DNA of 64,000 nucleotides from Acanthamoeba sp. SK_2022b (taxonomy: Eukaryota; Discosea; Longamoebia; Acanthamoebidae): positions 108,250 to 172,249 of the forward strand of contig JANDJZ010000046.1 in the NCBI GenBank assembly GCA_027943245.1, read 5' to 3'. Under the pieces are notes generated by a model that worked only from the letters and a program-made list of their open reading frames with translations, was not told the origin of the DNA and made no database searches. The position numbers and the translations under genes are program-made. This document shows positions 7,761-52,345 of this stretch, one piece after another (the first letter of the stretch is position 1; the number at the start of each line of letters is the position of its first letter).

Positions 7761-8707
7761 ATCCCCATCAACACTGCCCTTCTCTGAAAGGCCCCTGTAG
7801 ATAAGCGTCGCGCAACTGTTGTTCAAACAGCTCTCCGCACAACTGTTGCTTGAAGAGCCGTAGTGTGTGATTGGGCAAGTTAAAAAACAACATTGCAGCG
7901 CATTGATTCGCGTTCTGCAGTCGTAACTGGCCAAGTGACCCCCCAGTCACGTCGTGTCACCCGGAAGGGAACGCCCAGCAAGGGGGAAGTGGCAACGACA
8001 GAGGCTTAGCCTCTTGGCTTCCGGATGATCCGAGACTGAGGGCAAGGGTTTCCCCGCAGCCAAGCACAGAGTCTTTTCTGGGCCGAGTAGAGCAAGCCAC
8101 CGTGTTTGCCTTTGTTCGTTGACGTTAGCGGATGGGAGCGACAGGCTTCGCTGTCCCTCAGCTGCGCTGGGTTCCCTGCAAGGAAAGGGCGTGGGGTTGT
8201 CGCCCGCACTTGGCGCAGGGCAAGGGGATTGGCGCCGTGTTGGCCACGAGTCCCACCCGTGCCAGCCGGCCTCCAGAGGCGAGAATGAAGCGAATGCCTG
8301 CCCGGCCTAATCAATAGCAAACCGGGAGGAACTGCAACACGACCGCGGCCCAAACCCAGATTAGCCCGCCAGGAAGGACCCGTGTGGCGCTGATCGCGGC
8401 ATGCTGCTGGCTGTCATGTCAGCGCCCTTCATGTCAACACGGTCAGAGCGACCTTACGCGAACCTCTCGGCCAGTTTATTTTGGGCGACGTCGCGCTGCC
8501 ATTCGGGAAGGCCCAGGGCGAGCGACATTCCCCGACAGGTCCGCAGACGGCCAAACCGCAGACCGGGCCCGCTGCGCCCGTGACCCTCTCTCGCCCTGCT
8601 CAAACCTCACTTGCACTTGCACGCGAGAGAACGACCGGCCCTCCCCTCAGCATCGCATCAACAAGTTCAGACCGTCCAAAAGACGTCGAGCAAGGAGGCG
8701 AGAAGGG
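7761..8707. other. Intergenic and probable 5' UTR
   Basis: There is about 950 bp between the GEX1-like stop and the first ATG of the CBS protein. The last 320 bp are open in the CBS frame but have no ATG, so they are taken as leader. I see no RNA gene, repeat or mobile element here. Confidence 0.5.
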
Positions 8708-11700
8708 ATGGAGGCGATGAAGAGACTGTCGAGCATGTCCGCCTTCCACCACCACCACGGCAAGAAGGTGGTGGACGACAAGCAGCAGAGCAAGAAGGAA
8801 GATGAAAGCGAGACGAGCAGCGAAGAGGAGGAGGAGGACAGGAGCGAAGAAGAGGAAGGGGAGAGAAAGCAAAAGAAGCTGAGCAAGAGCAAAAGCTTCA
8901 AGCTGAAGCTGCTGAAGAAGATGGGGCGAGGAAAGAAGGTGGCCGGCAAGGAGAGCGCAGGCAAGAATGGGGTGGCGGGCGACAAGCGCCAGATGGAGCG
9001 GGAGAGGCGTAAGGACGAGATGATCAAGAGCTACGACAAGAAGGCGCAGCTGGACGCAGCCACCACCGCCTCATCGTCTCACATCAAGGAGATTCCTCAG
9101 ACCGTGATGTGCGGGATGAATCTTCCGGGCTACAAGTCACACATCAAGAGGAGCGCTTCCTCATCATCTCCCGGATCATCATCTGCTGGCAGCGCTGCTA
9201 ACAACCGTGGACGGCGAGGCGGCGCCGAGGAACGCCGCCAAGTAGCGAACAGCAACCCGCTTCTGATTAACGATGAAAACGAGCGACGTCGAGCCGAAGC
9301 CAAGGAGAGGCATCGCGAGCTATGTAGCCTCGGGGGCGTTCTCGGTCAGAAAAATCGTTCGCCTTCCCCCTCGTCATCTTCATCCGCGGCCCAACCAAAG
9401 ATCGAAAACGGCGGAGAAGCGGCCAAAAGAGATGCGAAAAGCGAGAGGCGCAGCAGCGGCTTCCTTCTCGGCGGCCGCGTGCGCGACCAGTCCACGGCCC
9501 GCCAGCCCAGCAAGCAGCAGGCGCCGTGGGTCAAAGGCGAGAGCCAGCCGCCCGCCGGCTCGGCCAGGTGCTGTGTCGACAGCGGCGACTACGTGGAGCG
9601 CGGGGAGGAGGGCATCGACCTCATGGAGCTCCAGCGCCAGTTCCAGCAGGGCGGCGGCGCCGACGACGACGAGCGGCGCGTGCGCCTGGCCGAGGACCGG
9701 ATCAAGGGCGCCGCGCGCCTCCCGTGGTGGGGCCTCAACGCGTCGTCGGGCAAGGAGGGCCGCCGCAAGGAGTGGGAGAGGTTCTTCTCCGGGTTCAAGG
9801 TCTGCGAGCTGTGGGAGGACGACGAGGGCAACGACGAAGACTACGACGATGACGACGACGAAGAGGATGGGTGCCGCGGCAAGAAGGTGGCCTACCTCAC
9901 CGAGGAGACGACCGTGAAGGAGGCTCTCGACGTGATGAGCGAGCGCGCCCTCAACGCGCTCCCGATCTGCCTCAAGGAGGTCGACTCGACCTGCTGCGGC
10001 CACGAAGGGGGCAAGGCCAAGGCGGCCGCCGACGGCTCGCACGAGGAGGACGAGGTGCGCGAGCGCGCACTGCGCCACCTGCGCAAGTGGCGCAAGGCGG
10101 AGCTGGTGCGCGAGCGCGAGCGGAAGCAGCGGAAGCAGCGCGGCAAGACCGTGCTCGGGTGGATCGACCTGCGCGACCTCCTCACCTTTGCCGTGTTCAA
10201 ATTCCCGCGGCCGCCATCGGCCGACATCGGGATCGACGAGGTGCGGCGGCAGGGCATGGAGTTCACGCAGCACAAGATTCGGGAGCTGGTCAACATCTAC
10301 GGCATGAACGGCGGGCACGTGGTGAACGAGGAGGGCACGGGCGGGCAGGGCCGGCACCGCATCGCGGCCAACGACCGCATGCCCGCCGTGTTCCGCATGC
10401 TGCGCAGCGAGAAGGGCCTCCGCGTGCTGCCGGTCTACGACCAGAGCCAGCTCCCGCCGGAGAGCCGCTGCCTCGTGCGGGTGCTGGACACCAACGCCGT
10501 GGTCAAGTGGCTCCACCGCGTGGTCCAGGACAACCGCTCGCGCTCCCAGTTCGTGCGCGAGCTGGCCAACCGGCAGGTGCGGCACTGGGGCGCGTTCGCC
10601 GACGCGATCCTGGGCAAGGAGCTCATCTACTTCGAGACCGAGGAGATGATCAACAACTTTGACCACTTTCGGGCCAGGAAGCGCGAGCGGCGGATGAGCA
10701 AGCTCATCATCCCGTTCGGAAGCACCGACGGCGGCAGCACCGTCGAGGTGACCAAGAAGAGCTGCAAGACCCCGTCCCCGCCGCCCACGGCCAGCGACCA
10801 CCCGAAGGAGAAGATCGATCTCAACAAGCACCTCTTCACCATCTCGGCGGACCGCAGCGTCATCGACGCCTTCAAGATCATCTACAACTACAAGGTGTCG
10901 GCGCTGGGCGTCCTCGAGAAGAAGGGCAAGGAGAGGAACGTGGACGACGAGAGCAGCAGCGACGATGAAGATGACGATGACGACGAGACCGAAGAAGATG
11001 ATGAGGACAGCGATTCGTCTTCGTCATCGTCGTCTTCGTCGGGCGAAGACGAGGAGCAGACCAAGTTGCAGCGAAAGAAGAAGGAGCGGGACCAGGAGAA
11101 GGCCAGGGGGCCCAGCCTCAAGGAGGCCAAGGCCATGGTCGAAGCGGCGCGCGACAGTTCCAGCGAGGACGAGAGCAGCAGCGACGACAGCGAGACAGAA
11201 TCGGAGGAGGAGGAGGAGGAGGAGGCCAAGGCGAGCGACATGACGACGGCCACCAACGGCCTGGACCACTCGAACCAGCTCATCGACAACCCGCCGCCCA
11301 AGCGGACAGCCGACTCGCAGACGCTGTCGTCAGGGTCGCACGCCAAGCCCAGGCGATCCCAGAGCGACCCGCTGGGCCTGAGCTCGTCGAAGAAGGCCAA
11401 CGCGCACGACGCCTCGGACACGGCCAAGACGAGGTCGGAGGCCAAGGAGCGGAAGCCGCTGTGGTCGCGATCGAAGAAGCCGACGGCGAGGATCACCCGC
11501 GAGGAGATGGTGGTGCGGGCGGCGCAGGACGGGAAGCTGATCTCGCACCTGAGCTCGAGCGACCTCAAGCACTTTGAGCCCTACGCGATGATGCGATGCC
11601 TCCACATGTCGATCAAGGAGTACCTCTCCTGCTTCAAGGAGAAGAAGCCCCTCGTCACCTGCCGCCGCGACACCACCCTCCTGCAGCTGCTCGAGAAGAT

Positions 11701-11881
11701 GGCGCGCGAGGAGGTCAACCGGGTGTGGCTCCTCGCCGACGAGGACGACGACGAGGACGACAACGGACACGACCGGAAGGCGAAGCAGCAGGGCTCCGAG
11801 GCCAAGCCCAAGGACAACGGCGGACGGCCCATCGGCATGATCTCCCTCGCCGACGTGATCGCCGAAGTCACTCGCCTGTAG
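8708..11881 (+). CDS. CBS-domain protein with highly charged linkers
   Basis: Single-exon, 1,057 residues from MEAMKRLSSMSAFHHHHGKK. The N-terminal 250 residues are Lys/Glu/Ser-rich. Four CBS-like segments can be read: YLTEETTVKEALDVMSERAL (about residue 397), a segment around LRVLPVYDQSQ and DTNAVVKWLHRVVQD, LFTISADRSVIDAFKIIYNY (about 710), and LVTCRRDTTLLQLLEKMARE with PIGMISLADVIAEVTRL at the end. CBS pairs usually bind adenosine nucleotides and sense energy state. Between the third and fourth lie long Asp/Glu/Ser tracts. No catalytic domain (IMPDH, channel or kinase) is visible, so it may be a scaffold or AMPK-gamma-like regulator; that is inference. The start is chosen because no ATG precedes it in this frame and the composition changes there. 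Confidence 0.8.
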   Translation: MEAMKRLSSMSAFHHHHGKKVVDDKQQSKKEDESETSSEEEEEDRSEEEEGERKQKKLSKSKSFKLKLLKKMGRGKKVAGKESAGKNGVAGDKRQMERERRKDEMIKSYDKKAQLDAATTASSSHIKEIPQTVMCGMNLPGYKSHIKRSASSSSPGSSSAGSAANNRGRRGGAEERRQVANSNPLLINDENERRRAEAKERHRELCSLGGVLGQKNRSPSPSSSSSAAQPKIENGGEAAKRDAKSERRSSGFLLGGRVRDQSTARQPSKQQAPWVKGESQPPAGSARCCVDSGDYVERGEEGIDLMELQRQFQQGGGADDDERRVRLAEDRIKGAARLPWWGLNASSGKEGRRKEWERFFSGFKVCELWEDDEGNDEDYDDDDDEEDGCRGKKVAYLTEETTVKEALDVMSERALNALPICLKEVDSTCCGHEGGKAKAAADGSHEEDEVRERALRHLRKWRKAELVRERERKQRKQRGKTVLGWIDLRDLLTFAVFKFPRPPSADIGIDEVRRQGMEFTQHKIRELVNIYGMNGGHVVNEEGTGGQGRHRIAANDRMPAVFRMLRSEKGLRVLPVYDQSQLPPESRCLVRVLDTNAVVKWLHRVVQDNRSRSQFVRELANRQVRHWGAFADAILGKELIYFETEEMINNFDHFRARKRERRMSKLIIPFGSTDGGSTVEVTKKSCKTPSPPPTASDHPKEKIDLNKHLFTISADRSVIDAFKIIYNYKVSALGVLEKKGKERNVDDESSSDDEDDDDDETEEDDEDSDSSSSSSSSSGEDEEQTKLQRKKKERDQEKARGPSLKEAKAMVEAARDSSSEDESSSDDSETESEEEEEEEAKASDMTTATNGLDHSNQLIDNPPPKRTADSQTLSSGSHAKPRRSQSDPLGLSSSKKANAHDASDTAKTRSEAKERKPLWSRSKKPTARITREEMVVRAAQDGKLISHLSSSDLKHFEPYAMMRCLHMSIKEYLSCFKEKKPLVTCRRDTTLLQLLEKMAREEVNRVWLLADEDDDEDDNGHDRKAKQQGSEAKPKDNGGRPIGMISLADVIAEVTRL

Positions 11882-12257
11882 CCCCTGCAGTTGTTTTGTG
11901 TGACACGATCAGTGTTAGAACGGTGACCTTATGTTGGCGCTGCCAGCAATCGCACAAGGCGGGCCAACCGCGCACTCCTGGGGGGAGGGAATATGGTGGC
12001 GGACCCACAAAGTTTGTCCGCGCTTCACGCAAGCGATTGGGTCAATCACCGCGTTGTCGGCGATTGGGCCCGGGGAAAAGTAACAAAAGCGGCCAAACGG
12101 CCCGAGCGTCACAAGAAACCAAGACAAGGAAGGATGGAACCTGACCGCCTCCTGTGCACCGATGTACATGCCCATAACGCCTAATCAATCGTTTGCATTT
12201 TCGGTCACGATTTACTAGAAAGATTCTTAATCTGCGACTTTACCGTGGGTGGGATCT
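11882..12257. other. Intergenic
   Basis: This 376-bp stretch separates the CBS gene from the GPx selenoprotein and would have to hold the CBS 3' end and the GPx promoter. No clear element was seen. Confidence 0.4.
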
Positions 12258-14331
12258 ATGAAGGTCGGTGTACTGGCAGAGCGGGCGAGGGACCCCGAGA
12301 AGGGGGTGTCGGTCCAGGACCGGCGCCACCTCTTCCGTACCTACCCCAAGACCTTTGTGGGTACTGTTTTCCTGTGGCCTTTTTCATACACGCCCGTGCC
12401 GAGAGCCTCTCCCTCTGCATCTTTCGTAGCCACGCTCACCGCTGGCTACAAAAACCTGTGCAGGCTCAGAGATGGTCGATTGGGTGTACAAGAACGTTGT
12501 GGGCCTGCGGTTACGCAGCCAAGCCGTCGAGGTCTGTCAGCAGCTCATGGACACGGTGCGGAGCCTCCTCACCCCTTCCACCCTTCCTCCCCCCACGCGC
12601 TTTCTCGCGATGGTGCGGCGATTGGTGTCATGTTCGATCGACTCACGCTGCTTGTCGTGCTTCTTGTGGGGCTGATCGGTGGGTGGCCCAGGGGCTCTTC
12701 CGCCCAGTTAGTCGACGCAGGCTGGGGAAGCCCTTCTACGATGCGTCTGTCCTGTACCGCTTCACTGTACGCACGCAACACACGCACAGACAACCGTGTG
12801 CGCACATGTAGGTGGCTCTCTCTGATAGGCGGTCGTCCCATCACCTACCAGGTGGACTTCTCTGGAGGCGAGTGTGACGACGACGAGGACGACAGCGACA
12901 TTCTCGGAGAGAACAACAAGATTTCGTCAGACCAGGTGAGTGAACGATTGAAGCGCTCATGTCCAGCTGAGCTTCCTCCCGGAGAGCCTGACTTGACCTG
13001 ACCCGATCTTTGCTCGGGCCTCGTGGACTGCAGCTCGACGACATCCTCGTGGCGTTCATCAGCGGCGTCGAAATCAAGAAGAGGCGACACTTCTTGCGCT
13101 CCTACGACAACTGCTTCGTCGGTCCGTAATGGAAGCTGTGCTGTCTTGCCAGCATTTGGTCGGCCACCGCCCGCATGTGACTGACCGTGGCTTGCGCAAC
13201 CGCGACGACAGGCTCCGAGGCCACGGACTGGATCGTGGACAAGTTCAACGTCTCTCGCGTGCAAGCTGTCGAACTGGGCCAAAAGATGTTGAGCATGGTG
13301 CGAACAACGTCATTGAGTCGCTTTGTCGGTCCTGTGAGGTCCCTCAAAAAGTGGCGCGACTCACGCTTTTACCCTAACATCTTCCAGGGCTTCTTCGAGC
13401 ACGTCAGCGACCAGAACAAGCCGTTTGAGGACGCCAACGAGTTCTACCGCTTCGTGGTAGGCGCGAACCTCATTGAGTGTGGCTGTCTCCGAGCCTCATA
13501 ACAAACTCTCTCGTTTCCCTTTTCTTTACAGGACACCCAAGCGACAGGACCGCAAATCACCGATAAGACCACCCTCTACGACTTCAACGCTCTCGACATC
13601 GATAAGAACCCGGTGTCGCTCAGCGAGTACGCCGGTCGAGTGGTGCTGGTCGTCAACGTAGCGTCGTTCTGAGGTTTGACCCCGAAGAACTACACGCAGC
13701 TCCAAGAGGTGCGCCATCGCCACGTCTCTCAGGCGATCCTGTGCCTGTGTCAAGAAGAGAGAGAGATATATGCGCTCATCGCCTATCTCTTCGTCGAACT
13801 TAGTTGGTGGAGACTCACGGAGCATCGGGATTCACCGTTCTGGGTTTCCCGTGCAATCAATTCGGCAAGTACGGCGTCTTCCTCCTCTCAGCGCATGTGC
13901 GTGGCTCTGATATTCGCGAGAGACTCACCGTTACCACCGCTGTCTGGGTGGGCTGTCTGCAGGCAAGAGCCGGGCACAAACGACGAGATAAAGGAGTTCG
14001 TCAAGAAGTTCAACGTCACCTTCCCCCTGTTCGACAAGGTCAACGTAAACGGACCAAACGCCCACCCGCTCTTCAAGTGGCTCAAGGACGAGTGCGTTCT
14101 CCCTCTCCTCCCCCCCCCCCGTCCAAGGCAATCTTCGCCGTGTAGTGGCCTGATCGGCCACGGCGTGTTGGCAGGCTTCCTGGATCCCTGGGTATCAAGG
14201 GCGTGAAGTGGAACTTCACCAAGTTCTTGATCAACAAGCAGGGAAAGCCCGTCCAGCGCTACGGCCCGCCGACCGACCCCAAGTCCATCGAGAAGGACAT
14301 CCTCACTCTCATGGAGCAGGATTCCCTCTAG
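12258..14331 (+). CDS. Selenocysteine glutathione peroxidase with two N-terminal DEP domains
   Basis: Eleven exons join to 375 codons with consistent phase: 12258-12360, 12464-12555, 12692-12766, 12852-12935, 13034-13121, 13212-13297, 13388-13456, 13532-13708, 13804-13868, 13963-14091 and 14175-14331. The first DEP domain spans [28 protein letters not shown] and [10 protein letters not shown] second follows an acidic linker: [43 protein letters not shown]. The rest is a glutathione peroxidase: VLVVNVASF, then TGA at 13670-13672, then [12 protein letters not shown], with FPCNQFG and KWNFTKFLI giving the catalytic Gln and Trp. The TGA is exactly where family members have Sec or Cys, the frame continues 150 codons, and a SECIS hairpin follows. 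GPx reduces peroxides with thiols; DEP domains often bind membranes or GPCR-linked partners. That membrane placement is inferred. Confidence 0.93.
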
Positions 14332-14435
14332 CGAGGCTTTTCATGGGGTTTCAAGCCAGACTCGGAAGCGGATGGCCAGCGGGCCGTCGACGGTGATCGC
14401 GATGGACAGAACGCGTAGAAGAAGAGTGCATGCGA

Positions 14436-14490
14436 ATGAAGGCGCCACCGGAAAACACAGCCCTGGTTGCTCGTGTCGGTAGCGCCTGAT
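14436..14490 (+). promoter_or_regulatory. SECIS element in the 3' UTR of the GPx gene
   Basis: The hairpin starts 105 bp past the stop. It shows the eukaryotic SECIS plan: ATGA at 14436-14439, stem strand GGCGCCACCGG (14441-14451), an A-run (14452-14455) in the apical region, stem strand TCGGTAGCGCC (14476-14486), and TGAT (14487-14490) completing the non-Watson-Crick quartet with ATGA. The two stem strands pair as GGCGC/GCGCC and ACCG/CGGT. It would recruit SBP2 and the Sec-specific elongation factor to recode the TGA at 13670. Confidence 0.9.
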
Positions 14491-14759
14491 AAGATACGGA
14501 GCCGATTCCAACCGTCGCTCCTTGCGCTCCTTCTCCCGGACTGCCTCTCGTGACCTCTCGCCGGCTTGTTCCTCCGCGCTTGAGGGGCAAAACAAGAACA
14601 AAGTTCATTTTTCGATTGGTTGACACGTTATTTTTATTGCTTCAGCGCCGGGCAGCTTTTCACTGTAGCGGGCCCGCAAGCTTTTCTGTCGAAACCTCCC
14701 CCACCGCTTGCATCATAATCAAGAGCTGCCGGTGTGCCGCCAGTAGCACAGAACAACAG

Positions 14760-15398
14760 ATGGCCGACCAGGATAACGAGACCAAATCTGCGGCAGACCT
14801 CTACCTCATGCTCGAAGGCGTCAAGGGCCCGGTAACTGAACCTGAGCGTGAGGGCTGGATCAAGTGCCTGGCGTACGATTGGGGCGTAAGGTTTGCCGTT
14901 CACGATGCTGAGTGCAAGAAGGAAGAAGAGAAGGCCGCCGCCAGGGCAGCGGAGAGGGGCGAGAACGAAGAGGCTTGGGAGCGCAAGGTCAGGCTGAGGG
15001 TTGAGTGCTCGGCCCCCTCCGTCAGCGAGCTCACCCTCCTCAAAGAGACTGACTCTTCTTCGCCTCTGCTCTTCTACCACTCGGTCCTCTGCAAACCCGT
15101 CCGTCGGGCGGTTGTCGAGATCGTTCGGCGCTCGGACAATACGACTCTCCGCTTCGAGCTGGAAGACGTCTGGGTCTCCAGCTTCTCGTTTTCCACGCGC
15201 GACAGCGCCGGCTCGGGCAGGCCTGTTGAGTCACTGTCGCTCTACTTCCAGCACGTGACCTACGGTGTGCGGAATGGGTCCGGCAAGGCATCCACCACGA
15301 CAGGATGGGACCGCGCCAACGAAGCGGCGACTCTCGCCGGTGAATCGGTAGGGCCCTTCTGGGAAGACGACACCGAGCCGGAACAGGACATGTCGTGA
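14760..15398 (+). CDS. Hcp-fold (type VI secretion tube protein family) protein, intronless
   Basis: Uninterrupted frame of 212 residues from MADQDNETKS. It follows the bacterial Hcp pattern: DLYLMLEGVKGPVTEPER, GWIKCLAYDWGV, an acidic insert, SSPLLFYHSVLCKPVRRAVV, LRFELEDVWVSSFSFS, ESLSLYFQHVTYGV, and near the end TTTGWDRANE. In bacteria Hcp rings stack into the tube expelled by type VI secretion systems. No other T6SS gene is nearby, and both neighbours are ordinary intron-bearing eukaryotic genes. The lack of introns where every neighbour has several, and the bacterial family, point to horizontal transfer followed by adaptation to host composition. The insert of about 25 Lys/Glu/Ala-rich residues after the first motif is unusual. 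A poly(A)-like AATAAA occurs near 15412. Its role in an amoeba is unknown. Confidence 0.82.
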   Translation: MADQDNETKSAADLYLMLEGVKGPVTEPEREGWIKCLAYDWGVRFAVHDAECKKEEEKAAARAAERGENEEAWERKVRLRVECSAPSVSELTLLKETDSSSPLLFYHSVLCKPVRRAVVEIVRRSDNTTLRFELEDVWVSSFSFSTRDSAGSGRPVESLSLYFQHVTYGVRNGSGKASTTTGWDRANEAATLAGESVGPFWEDDTEPEQDMS

Positions 15399-50300: not shown

Positions 50301-52345
50301 GGTCGATGCAGTCCTGCGAGTCCATGCCGTAGTCGACGAAGGTCCAGTCGATCTTCTCGCGCTCGTACTCCTGCTGCTCGAGCGTGAACATGTGGTGGTT
50401 GAAGAACTGCTGCAGCTTCTCGTTGGTGTAATTGATGCACAGCTGCTCGAACGAGTTGTGCTGGAAGATCTCGAAACCGGAGATGTCGAGCACGCCGATC
50501 CACAGGGCCGTCTTGTCCTTGTGCGACAGGATCTTGTTGATCTTCTGCACGATCCACAGGAAGAGCCGGCCGTAGAGGGCCTTGCACAGCGCGTCGCGCG
50601 AGGCCATGGCCTTGGACTTGTTGAGCGCGCGCGTCACCCACTCGTTACCGGCCTTGATGCGCGGCGAGAGCAGGCCGGCCTTGAGCCCGGCGGCCGACAC
50701 GCCCAGCAGCTCGGCGGCGATGTTGAGCTCCACCTCGTCCTTGAGCCCGGCCGTCTCCGAGTTGACGTCGAAGAAGGGCAGGTTGCCCAGGTGCAGGATC
50801 GCCGAGATGGTCTGGAAGATCGCGATGCGCTCCTCCTCGTTGATGTTGAGGATGTCAAAGGCCTTGAGCATGTGGTCGAACTCCTTGGCGTCGTCCATGT
50901 CGTCCACCGTGTAGCACGAGTTCTGGTTGAGGAAGAAGTAGTCCTCCGGCTTGGTCAGCTTCAGCTTCTGCTTCAGCTCCTCCGGCATGGCCTTGGACAG
51001 GATCTGGTAGAAGATGTGGAAGTTCCTCTCACCGGCGCCCTGGGCCGTCACGCGCGACTTCTCGAGCAGGTAGATGAACGTGTTGGCGCCCGTGATCTGA
51101 CCGCCGGCGTTGAACTGCAGCTCGATGAACTTACCGAAACGCGACGAGTTGTTGTTCTTGGTCGTCTTGGCGTTACCGAAGGCCTCGAGGATCGGGTTGA
51201 ACTCGAGCAGCTGCTGCTCCAGCAGACCGCCCTCAGCGCGACCGGCGATCGCCGTCAGGTACTGAATGACCTTCTTCGTGTTCTCGGTCTTACCAGCTCC
51301 CGACTCACCCCTGGTGCGGGAACGCAATTGTCAGTTACCGTGCGACACACCGTGACCGGTCTTGTTTGGTCAAACATGTTTGGAATATTTGAGAAATAAT
51401 ACTAAACTCCAATAGAAAATGATAATTATGATCGGTGGTCGGGACAACAACTTGTTGAACAACCTGAGTGTAGGGGCCGTTTGAGGGGGGGGGGGCGTAC
51501 GTAATGAGCATGGACTGATTCTGCCTGGTGTTGAGCATGGCCCTGTAGGCAGCGTCGGAAATGGCGAAGATGTGAGGGGCGACCTTGTCCCTGGGGCGAC
51601 CACGGTAGATGTCGATGATCTCCGGGGTGTAGACGGGAAGCCTCTTGTAGGGGTTCACCACCACCAAGAAAAGACCCGAGTAGGTCTGCAAACGTAGATG
51701 GGGAGAGGTAAAGTGGTGAGTAACGAAGGGTCTCAAAAATCATCGAGTTAACCCAGACGAGGCGTACGTGGAAGAGATCGGCATCGTAACGCTTCTTGAG
51801 GTTGTGGAGCACGGCGGGCTCGTTGAGGTAACCAAGCTCACCCATGTCCTCCACGCCGTCGAACTTGGGCGGGTTGACGCCCAGGAAGGTCTTCTCGTTC
51901 TTGGGCTGCGACTTCTCCTACACGTTGGGCAAAAAAAGAGGAGGCCAACCACCCAAGGGTAGAGAATTCGCGGCGTGAGTGTTGGTTCTGAGCTCATCAA
52001 AGACCACCGGAAGCGGCCGCAAGATGAAGGTCGACTTCAAGAAATTTGACGTTTTACATCTTGGCCGCCTCCGGAGGCCTACCGATGTGAACTGACGGAA
52101 CACGAAGAAAGAGTGGAGTGAGTAGTTGTAGTTACCTCGCCATTCTCAAGACGGACGGTGAAGTTCTTGCCGTCATCCTTGAGAACCTCGACGTGGGCGA
52201 AGGCCCGCTCGGCGTCCTTGGTGGGCCACCACGCGAGCGTCTTGTCGCTGGCGCTCACCTGGAAACCGGTGTTCTTGTACTTGAGGTACTTGATGTAGTC
52301 GCTCTCGACCTCTCCTCCCTTCCTCCTGCGCTGAGTAGTCGACAT
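47323..52345 (-). CDS. Myosin II heavy chain (conventional, Acanthamoeba type)
   Basis: The N-terminal exon starts [20 protein letters not shown] and has the SH3-like region ([18 protein letters not shown]). Further exons give [20 protein letters not shown], then [19 protein letters not shown] and NQSMLITY. The large last exon starts with the P-loop [18 protein letters not shown] and continues with switch I ([12 protein letters not shown]), switch II ([10 protein letters not shown]), the actin-binding loop with [11 protein letters not shown], the SH1-SH2 region ([18 protein letters not shown]) and an IQ-containing neck ([19 protein letters not shown]). About 650 residues of unbroken heptad coiled coil follow. 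The end is a Gly/Ser/Arg tailpiece ([18 protein letters not shown]) with regularly spaced serines, as in the tailpiece phosphorylated in Acanthamoeba myosin II. It powers cortical contraction and cytokinesis in bipolar filaments. Total length is about 1,500 residues, as expected. The long antisense frames are shadows. Confidence 0.97.

Follow-up and report, generated by a model that had tools for sequence, protein, structure and literature searches.

GPX4, a soluble, peripheral membrane enzyme, protects membranes from lipid peroxidation (ferroptosis). Glutathione peroxidases (GPx) of the GPX4 type rely on Q, W and N as catalytic partners; GPX1-3 carry an oligomerisation loop, and the EFC helix motif holds the resolving Cys of thioredoxin-dependent 2-Cys GPx. 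The DEP fold often binds membranes. Here we describe a predicted gene in a 64,000-nucleotide stretch of Acanthamoeba sp. SK_2022b (assembly GCA_027943245.1, contig JANDJZ010000046.1, positions 108,250 to 172,249; hereafter the window, whose numbering is used throughout) that joins a pair of DEP domains to a GPx with an in-frame TGA at its catalytic codon. The predicted product is a GPX4-type DEP-DEP-GPx whose UGA is likely decoded as selenocysteine (Sec) via a selenocysteine insertion sequence (SECIS) in the 3′ untranslated region (UTR), and which likely acts as a membrane-recruited phospholipid-hydroperoxide reductase; we place the probability of this combined reading at about 0.62. Judged by its sequence, this is a new domain architecture within a known enzyme family.

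A literature search covering titles and the openings of abstracts, with subscription papers mostly outside it, turned up no account of DEP or PH fused to GPx among the papers listed. Algal selenoprotein fusions are named in the available part of one source, none of them with DEP (PMC7539508), and the available sections of a 2021 study on the redox enzymes of A. castellanii name a single GPx, without UGA (PMC8038987), so that a selenium-dependent peroxidase was probably missed.

Catalytic site and gene structure

The TGA at 13670-13672 lies in the context NVASF-TGA-GLT, exactly at the Sec position of GPX4; the first-pass annotation had placed it at the GPx catalytic codon, and re-derivation returned the same position. 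The tetrad partners are intact (Q285, W343 and N344 in our 382-residue model, equivalent to Q277, W335 and N336 in a 374-residue numbering). The GPx part is GPX4-like: in the loop region its alignment to human GPX4 shows one- or two-residue gaps, the oligomerisation loop being absent, and its best aligned stretches to GPX1 and GPX2 stop at query residues 126-127. The resolving Cys is likewise absent, with EFV where EFC would be expected and the sole other Cys of the GPx domain in FPCNQF. Pfam reports DEP (PF00610, cut-off 32.7) twice, scoring 71.0 bits on one half and 88.0 bits on the other, and a single GSHPx at 141 bits (cut-off 27).

The predicted coding region spans 12134-14331 on the plus strand and comprises 12 exons encoding 382 residues, with Sec254 as the predicted residue at the TGA. 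Its 11 introns, predicted from genomic DNA, are 75-136 nt long and follow the GT-AG rule, and we infer that the gene is transcribed and spliced as modelled. Exon 1 (12134-12163) encodes MEPDRLLCTD and is followed by a GT donor at 12164; the first intron (100 nt, GT...AAG) ends at 12263 and restores VGVLAER in phase. Aligned relatives share a conserved M...L.C(T)... start, which is missing from the 374-residue model; because this start is matched by MEPDRLLCTD together with the in-phase intron, position 12134 is preferred. The ATG at 12258 was rejected as a start, since it falls at the end of intron 1. Re-derivation therefore upheld the first-pass annotation as a whole with this one correction upstream: its eleven exons do join in phase to 374 residues across ten GT-AG introns, whereas its start, exon count and length gave way to those given here.

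DEP1 is encoded by exons 2 (12264-12360), 3 (12464-12555) and 4 (12692-12766, ending in YRFT), and DEP2 by exons 6 (13034-13121), 7 (13212-13297) and 8 (13388-13456, ending in YRFV). Between them, exon 5 (12852-12935) encodes a 28-residue acidic linker with a net charge of -10; DEP1 (+7) is the only basic DEP, and DEP2 carries -3. The GPx begins in exon 9 (13532-13708), which includes the catalytic site, and continues through exon 10 (13804-13868, with Q285), exon 11 (13963-14091) and exon 12 (14175-14331, with W343, N344 and the TAG stop). The two DEPs are 43% identical over 74 aligned positions and have four intron positions in common: phase 0 before each DEP (CTD/VGV and SDQ/LDD), phase 1 at FV/GSE, phase 0 before GLF or GFF, and phase 0 after YRF(T/V). 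Each DEP is accordingly a three-exon cassette between phase-0 introns, and the GPx too begins at a phase-0 intron. The four common intron positions suggest that the DEP pair arose, most simply, by tandem duplication of an exon cassette.

The gene is single-copy in this genome of 44.9 Mb and 1129 contigs: a genome search with the DEP-PH-GPx protein P0117 yielded pieces of GPx but no further GPx joined to DEP or PH. Five profilin matches were also obtained from the genome, and the two that were compared with solved structures resemble PDB profilins I, IA and II most closely (up to 251 bits), with 119 of 125 residues identical to 1F2K, a profilin from A. castellanii. This agrees with an amoebozoan, Acanthamoeba origin, though probably from a strain other than the one that supplied that profilin. 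A bacterial origin of the gene was considered and rejected on account of its 11 GT-AG introns.

Predicted selenocysteine insertion

Eukaryotic SECIS elements reside in the 3′ UTR and feature an ATGA/TGA core, a helix of 10-13 nt and an unpaired AA. Downstream of our gene, a predicted SECIS (14428-14502, plus strand) contains a hairpin of the form ATGA-12 nt-AAAA...TGAT at 14436-14490, with ATGA at 14436, an AAAA bulge and TGAT ending at 14490. Its 5′ strand of 12 nt forms up to 11 pairs, and its position in the transcript is presumably the 3′ UTR. The ATGA, A-rich loop and TGAT that had been noted from the sequence are all present, separated from the stop, whose last base is 14331, by 104 nt rather than the 105 first given.

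To gauge this hairpin we hand-coded a SECIS pattern from these general rules. In its strict form, at least 11 pairs were reached in 1 of 20,000 simulated 429-nt regions and at least 9 pairs in 30 of 20,000. Two of 592 overlapping tiles from both strands of the window matched, consistent with the single AA-type site detected when both strands were searched, and the hairpin is the only AA-type site with at least 9 pairs on either strand of the 64 kb. A looser pattern (AA or CC bulge, at least 9 pairs) matched 11 of 2000 simulated 309-nt regions, as well as window position 51074 (CC type); in other loci totalling about 402 kb, with both strands scanned, it produced nine matches, of which four are the TrxR element in two loci and five lie elsewhere.

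Sec machinery genes are present in the genome, SPS as pieces that each fall below the model cut-off and eEFSec as a single piece of 49 positions. Some candidates look bacterial: the higher-scoring tRNA-Sec (L010, contig C315) ends in an encoded CCA, and selD (L034, C367) and two GPx genes, on C339 (L002) and C1037 (L003-L004), are intronless. They probably stem from bacterial contigs included in the assembly, or from gene transfer; for this reason, the case for the machinery rests on contig C500 and on genes found in exon-like pieces. A TrxR gene also carries an in-frame TGA, its last match containing one TGA and reading GC-stop-G-stop. The TrxR SECIS, which lies downstream of this match and served as a positive control, is the genome's best match to the Rfam model SECIS_1 at 24.8 bits, itself below the cut-off. 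TrxR-L of A. castellanii is described with such a TGA ending in the available sections of the 2021 study (PMC8038987).

A candidate for a further selenoprotein lies at L019 (G000:C356:58503-58575, minus strand), where a strong SECIS-like hairpin of 12 pairs scores 24.0 bits with SECIS_1, below the cut-off. It sits downstream of fragments similar to a DSBA thioredoxin domain, which reach 21.2 bits against a cut-off of 25.6.

Relatives and history of the architecture

A profile search with the part of the protein up to the Sec codon gave 121 matches, of which the best 120 (118-458 residues) were considered. Among the matches listed in this and a further search, we assign 13 sequence clusters to the DEP-DEP-GPx family. 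Eleven of the 13 end one residue before the catalytic site (P0001, P0003, P0005, P0006, P0007, P0009, P0010, P0012, P0121, P0123 and P0124), one of which, P0012 from the eukprot collection, comprises the DEP tandem and the GPx as far as the Sec codon. P0122 stops short of the GPx. In P0002 (382 residues) a single open frame runs through DEP, DEP and GPx, with W at the catalytic site followed by a complete GPx. The fragment P0130 retains an intron-like insertion where intron 7 falls and reads YRFV-DTEAAGP without intron 8, making DEP2 and GPx contiguous. Relatives long enough to cover the junction thus agree on the fusion. None of the 13 DEP-tandem relatives among the matches listed has Cys at the catalytic site; since the profile reached only to the Sec codon, full-length Cys forms should have surfaced if they are present and share words with the query. 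A search of IMG/VR yielded 152 pattern matches, none confirmed, and no relative.

The expectation that annotation pipelines would cut the gene at its TGA is borne out by the eleven relatives that stop exactly there in the protein database. With 12 of 13 either cut at the catalytic codon or carrying W, the family appears to have been hidden by annotation. W occupies the GPx catalytic position in 39 of 333 listed proteins, most likely because gene callers read UGA as Trp. Such a W could be used to spot hidden selenoproteins among metagenome proteins.

The wider family was sampled as the best 120 of 3485 matches, so the counts that follow are no census. Pfam applied to 20 relatives placed both DEP and GSHPx over the cut-off in 12, and DEP, PH and GSHPx together in five (P0017, P0018, P0155, P0242 and P0246). 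DEP is narrowly below the cut-off in P0030 and P0239, and PH is below it in P0241 and P0243; P0117 and P0029 align with the DEP-PH-GPx proteins, their PH being unreported by the Pfam model. In P0250 a DEP is recognised by manual reading, the precomputed domains listing GPx only, and in the oomycete protein P0028 Pfam detected no DEP or PH. The catalytic residue is W in P0018, P0030, P0117 and P0239 and Cys in P0017, P0029, P0238, P0241, P0242, P0243, P0244, P0246, P0248 and P0250, while P0155 ends at the site. P0241 (BASA81_005555), a DEP-containing Cys-GPx, is filed under the chytrid Batrachochytrium salamandrivorans. The novelty of DEP-DEP-GPx suggested in the first-pass annotation stands insofar as no description was found; the architecture is not unique to one gene, given the 13 clusters and the DEP-PH-GPx proteins.

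In a tree of 58 GPx domains, with strong support starred at 95/80, 31 rows including this gene group together at 94/93, just below that threshold. The group contains both DEP-DEP rows, which pair at 98/90, 13 of 14 DEP-PH rows, all six PH rows, both DEP rows and eight without a recognised DEP or PH; P0018 lies outside it. The DEP-PH label changes nine times on the tree, four of these changes being forced by starred branches, which suggests that the architecture was gained or lost repeatedly. A single old origin with subsequent losses is possible. We tentatively propose, at somewhat less than even odds, that the DEP/PH-GPx form an ancient, overlooked eukaryotic subfamily of signal-gated selenoperoxidases, in which DEP-DEP, DEP-PH or PH, as modules that read membrane lipids within a GPX4 enzyme, would switch lipid-peroxide repair to the membrane at which an oxidative burst or phospholipase signal arises, with Sec replaced repeatedly by Cys.

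Predicted function and comparison with known systems

Under the favoured mechanism, the UGA would be decoded as Sec through the predicted SECIS hairpin in the 3′ UTR. The DEP tandem would then bring the enzyme to a membrane, by DEP-driven binding that is probably lipid- or signal-gated, where it would reduce phospholipid hydroperoxides. Catalysis would follow a monomeric thiol-dependent cycle, the selenol being oxidised by hydroperoxide and re-reduced by glutathione or protein thiols. We regard Sec insertion as likely, and membrane recruitment with lipid-hydroperoxide reduction as plausible and favoured.

Several observations weigh against this interpretation. On the side of Sec insertion, SECIS_1 scores only 14.6 bits on 14332-14620 (289 nt; cut-off 35, E 5.5), an Rfam scan of 11900-15000 found no SECIS up to E 10, and a genome-wide SECIS_1 search up to E 10 returned three other sites without the hairpin at 14436-14490. 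The SECIS call stands with the hand-coded pattern, through its 11 pairs and AAAA, and falls below the cut-off with Rfam. The folding energy of the element is ordinary given the base composition, with z -0.53 and 60 of 200 shuffles scoring at least as well. The relatives' ends at the catalytic codon, moreover, are ends of protein sequences rather than a TGA read in DNA. On the side of membrane recruitment, DEP2 and the linker are acidic, and DEP domains can instead bind receptors and other proteins. How the two DEPs sit with respect to each other is uncertain in the predicted structure (predicted template modelling score 0.48, linker predicted local distance difference test below 50), and the modelled tandem as a whole does not superpose on that of DEPTOR (root-mean-square deviation about 15 Å).

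The same features bear on the strongest alternative, in which the selenoprotein is identical and its DEP tandem docks on a protein, such as a receptor or G-protein complex as for RGS7 and Dishevelled, so that it would act as a peroxide sensor or relay at a signalling complex and not in lipid repair. The closest folds listed include the DEPs of Dishevelled (one with Frizzled 4), RGS7 (with GPR158), Epac and P-Rex1, which together with the acidic DEP2 and linker favours docking on protein; no fold covering DEP-DEP and GPx together appeared among the best 50 rows of each search (Foldseek, VIA-align). However, a GPX4-type domain lacking both oligomerisation loop and resolving Cys suits lipid substrates, and some relatives carry a PH domain where DEP2 would be, which we also count against docking. 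We consider this alternative unlikely, if worth keeping in view. Considerably less probable is a selenium-gated double product, in which low selenium would make the UGA a stop and release a 253-residue DEP-DEP protein that competes with the full enzyme. The UGA, as codon 254 of 382 and after two complete DEP domains, would allow this, but three introns lie downstream of it, so nonsense-mediated decay of the transcript would be expected.

That the TGA is a nonsense mutation, in a decaying gene or one with a DEP-DEP-only product, is highly improbable: the frame formally has a stop, yet beyond it the GPx frame stays intact for 128 residues over four exons with GT-AG borders, a SECIS-like hairpin is present, and among the 13 relatives 11 break off at this very residue while P0002 reads through. 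Equally improbable is a DEP gene wrongly joined to a neighbouring GPx gene, which a model predicted from the genomic DNA of one assembly might allow, as the frame, followed upstream from exon 9, meets its stop at 13499 without passing an ATG that could start a GPx, and DEP2 and GPx are contiguous in P0002 and P0130.

Two neighbours flank the gene on the plus strand. Just upstream, at 8384-11881, a 1165-residue open reading frame contains three CBS-domain stretches (PF00571); the next gene downstream, at 14760-15398, is a 212-residue open reading frame resembling type VI secretion Hcp (PF05638, 65 bits, cut-off 23.5).

If membrane recruitment by the DEP tandem is true, a built-in recruiting module would provide a natural test of whether GPX4 action is limited by targeting, and a means of asking at which times and sites an amoeba relies on lipid repair, phagosomes being one example. 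Among known proteins, DEPTOR (7dkl) likewise has two DEPs in tandem, a phosphatidic-acid-binding pair. Both DEPs described here match it by sequence; in the PDB it is the top sequence hit for the DEP part, at 105 bits, and it is the top Foldseek row. It differs in lacking an enzyme part, and the model does not match its tandem as a whole. DEPTOR itself binds mTOR and has a PDZ domain (PMC8439649). The Acanthamoeba GPx on contig C598 of the same genome belongs to the GPx family, but has Cys at the site (NVASKCGFT), the EFC motif and no DEP seen; it is probably the Hyr1 homologue ACA1_365760 named in the 2021 study (PMC8038987). Compared with human GPX4 (6hkq, 2obi, 7l8m), our protein has an additional 207-residue DEP-DEP part with the acidic linker in front, and F at the position before Sec where human GPX4 has Q. 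The DEP-PH-GPx proteins share the order of a DEP, a second module and a GPX4-type GPx with a Sec-like or Cys site, but they possess a PH where DEP2 stands here, and Cys in 10 of 14 tree rows.
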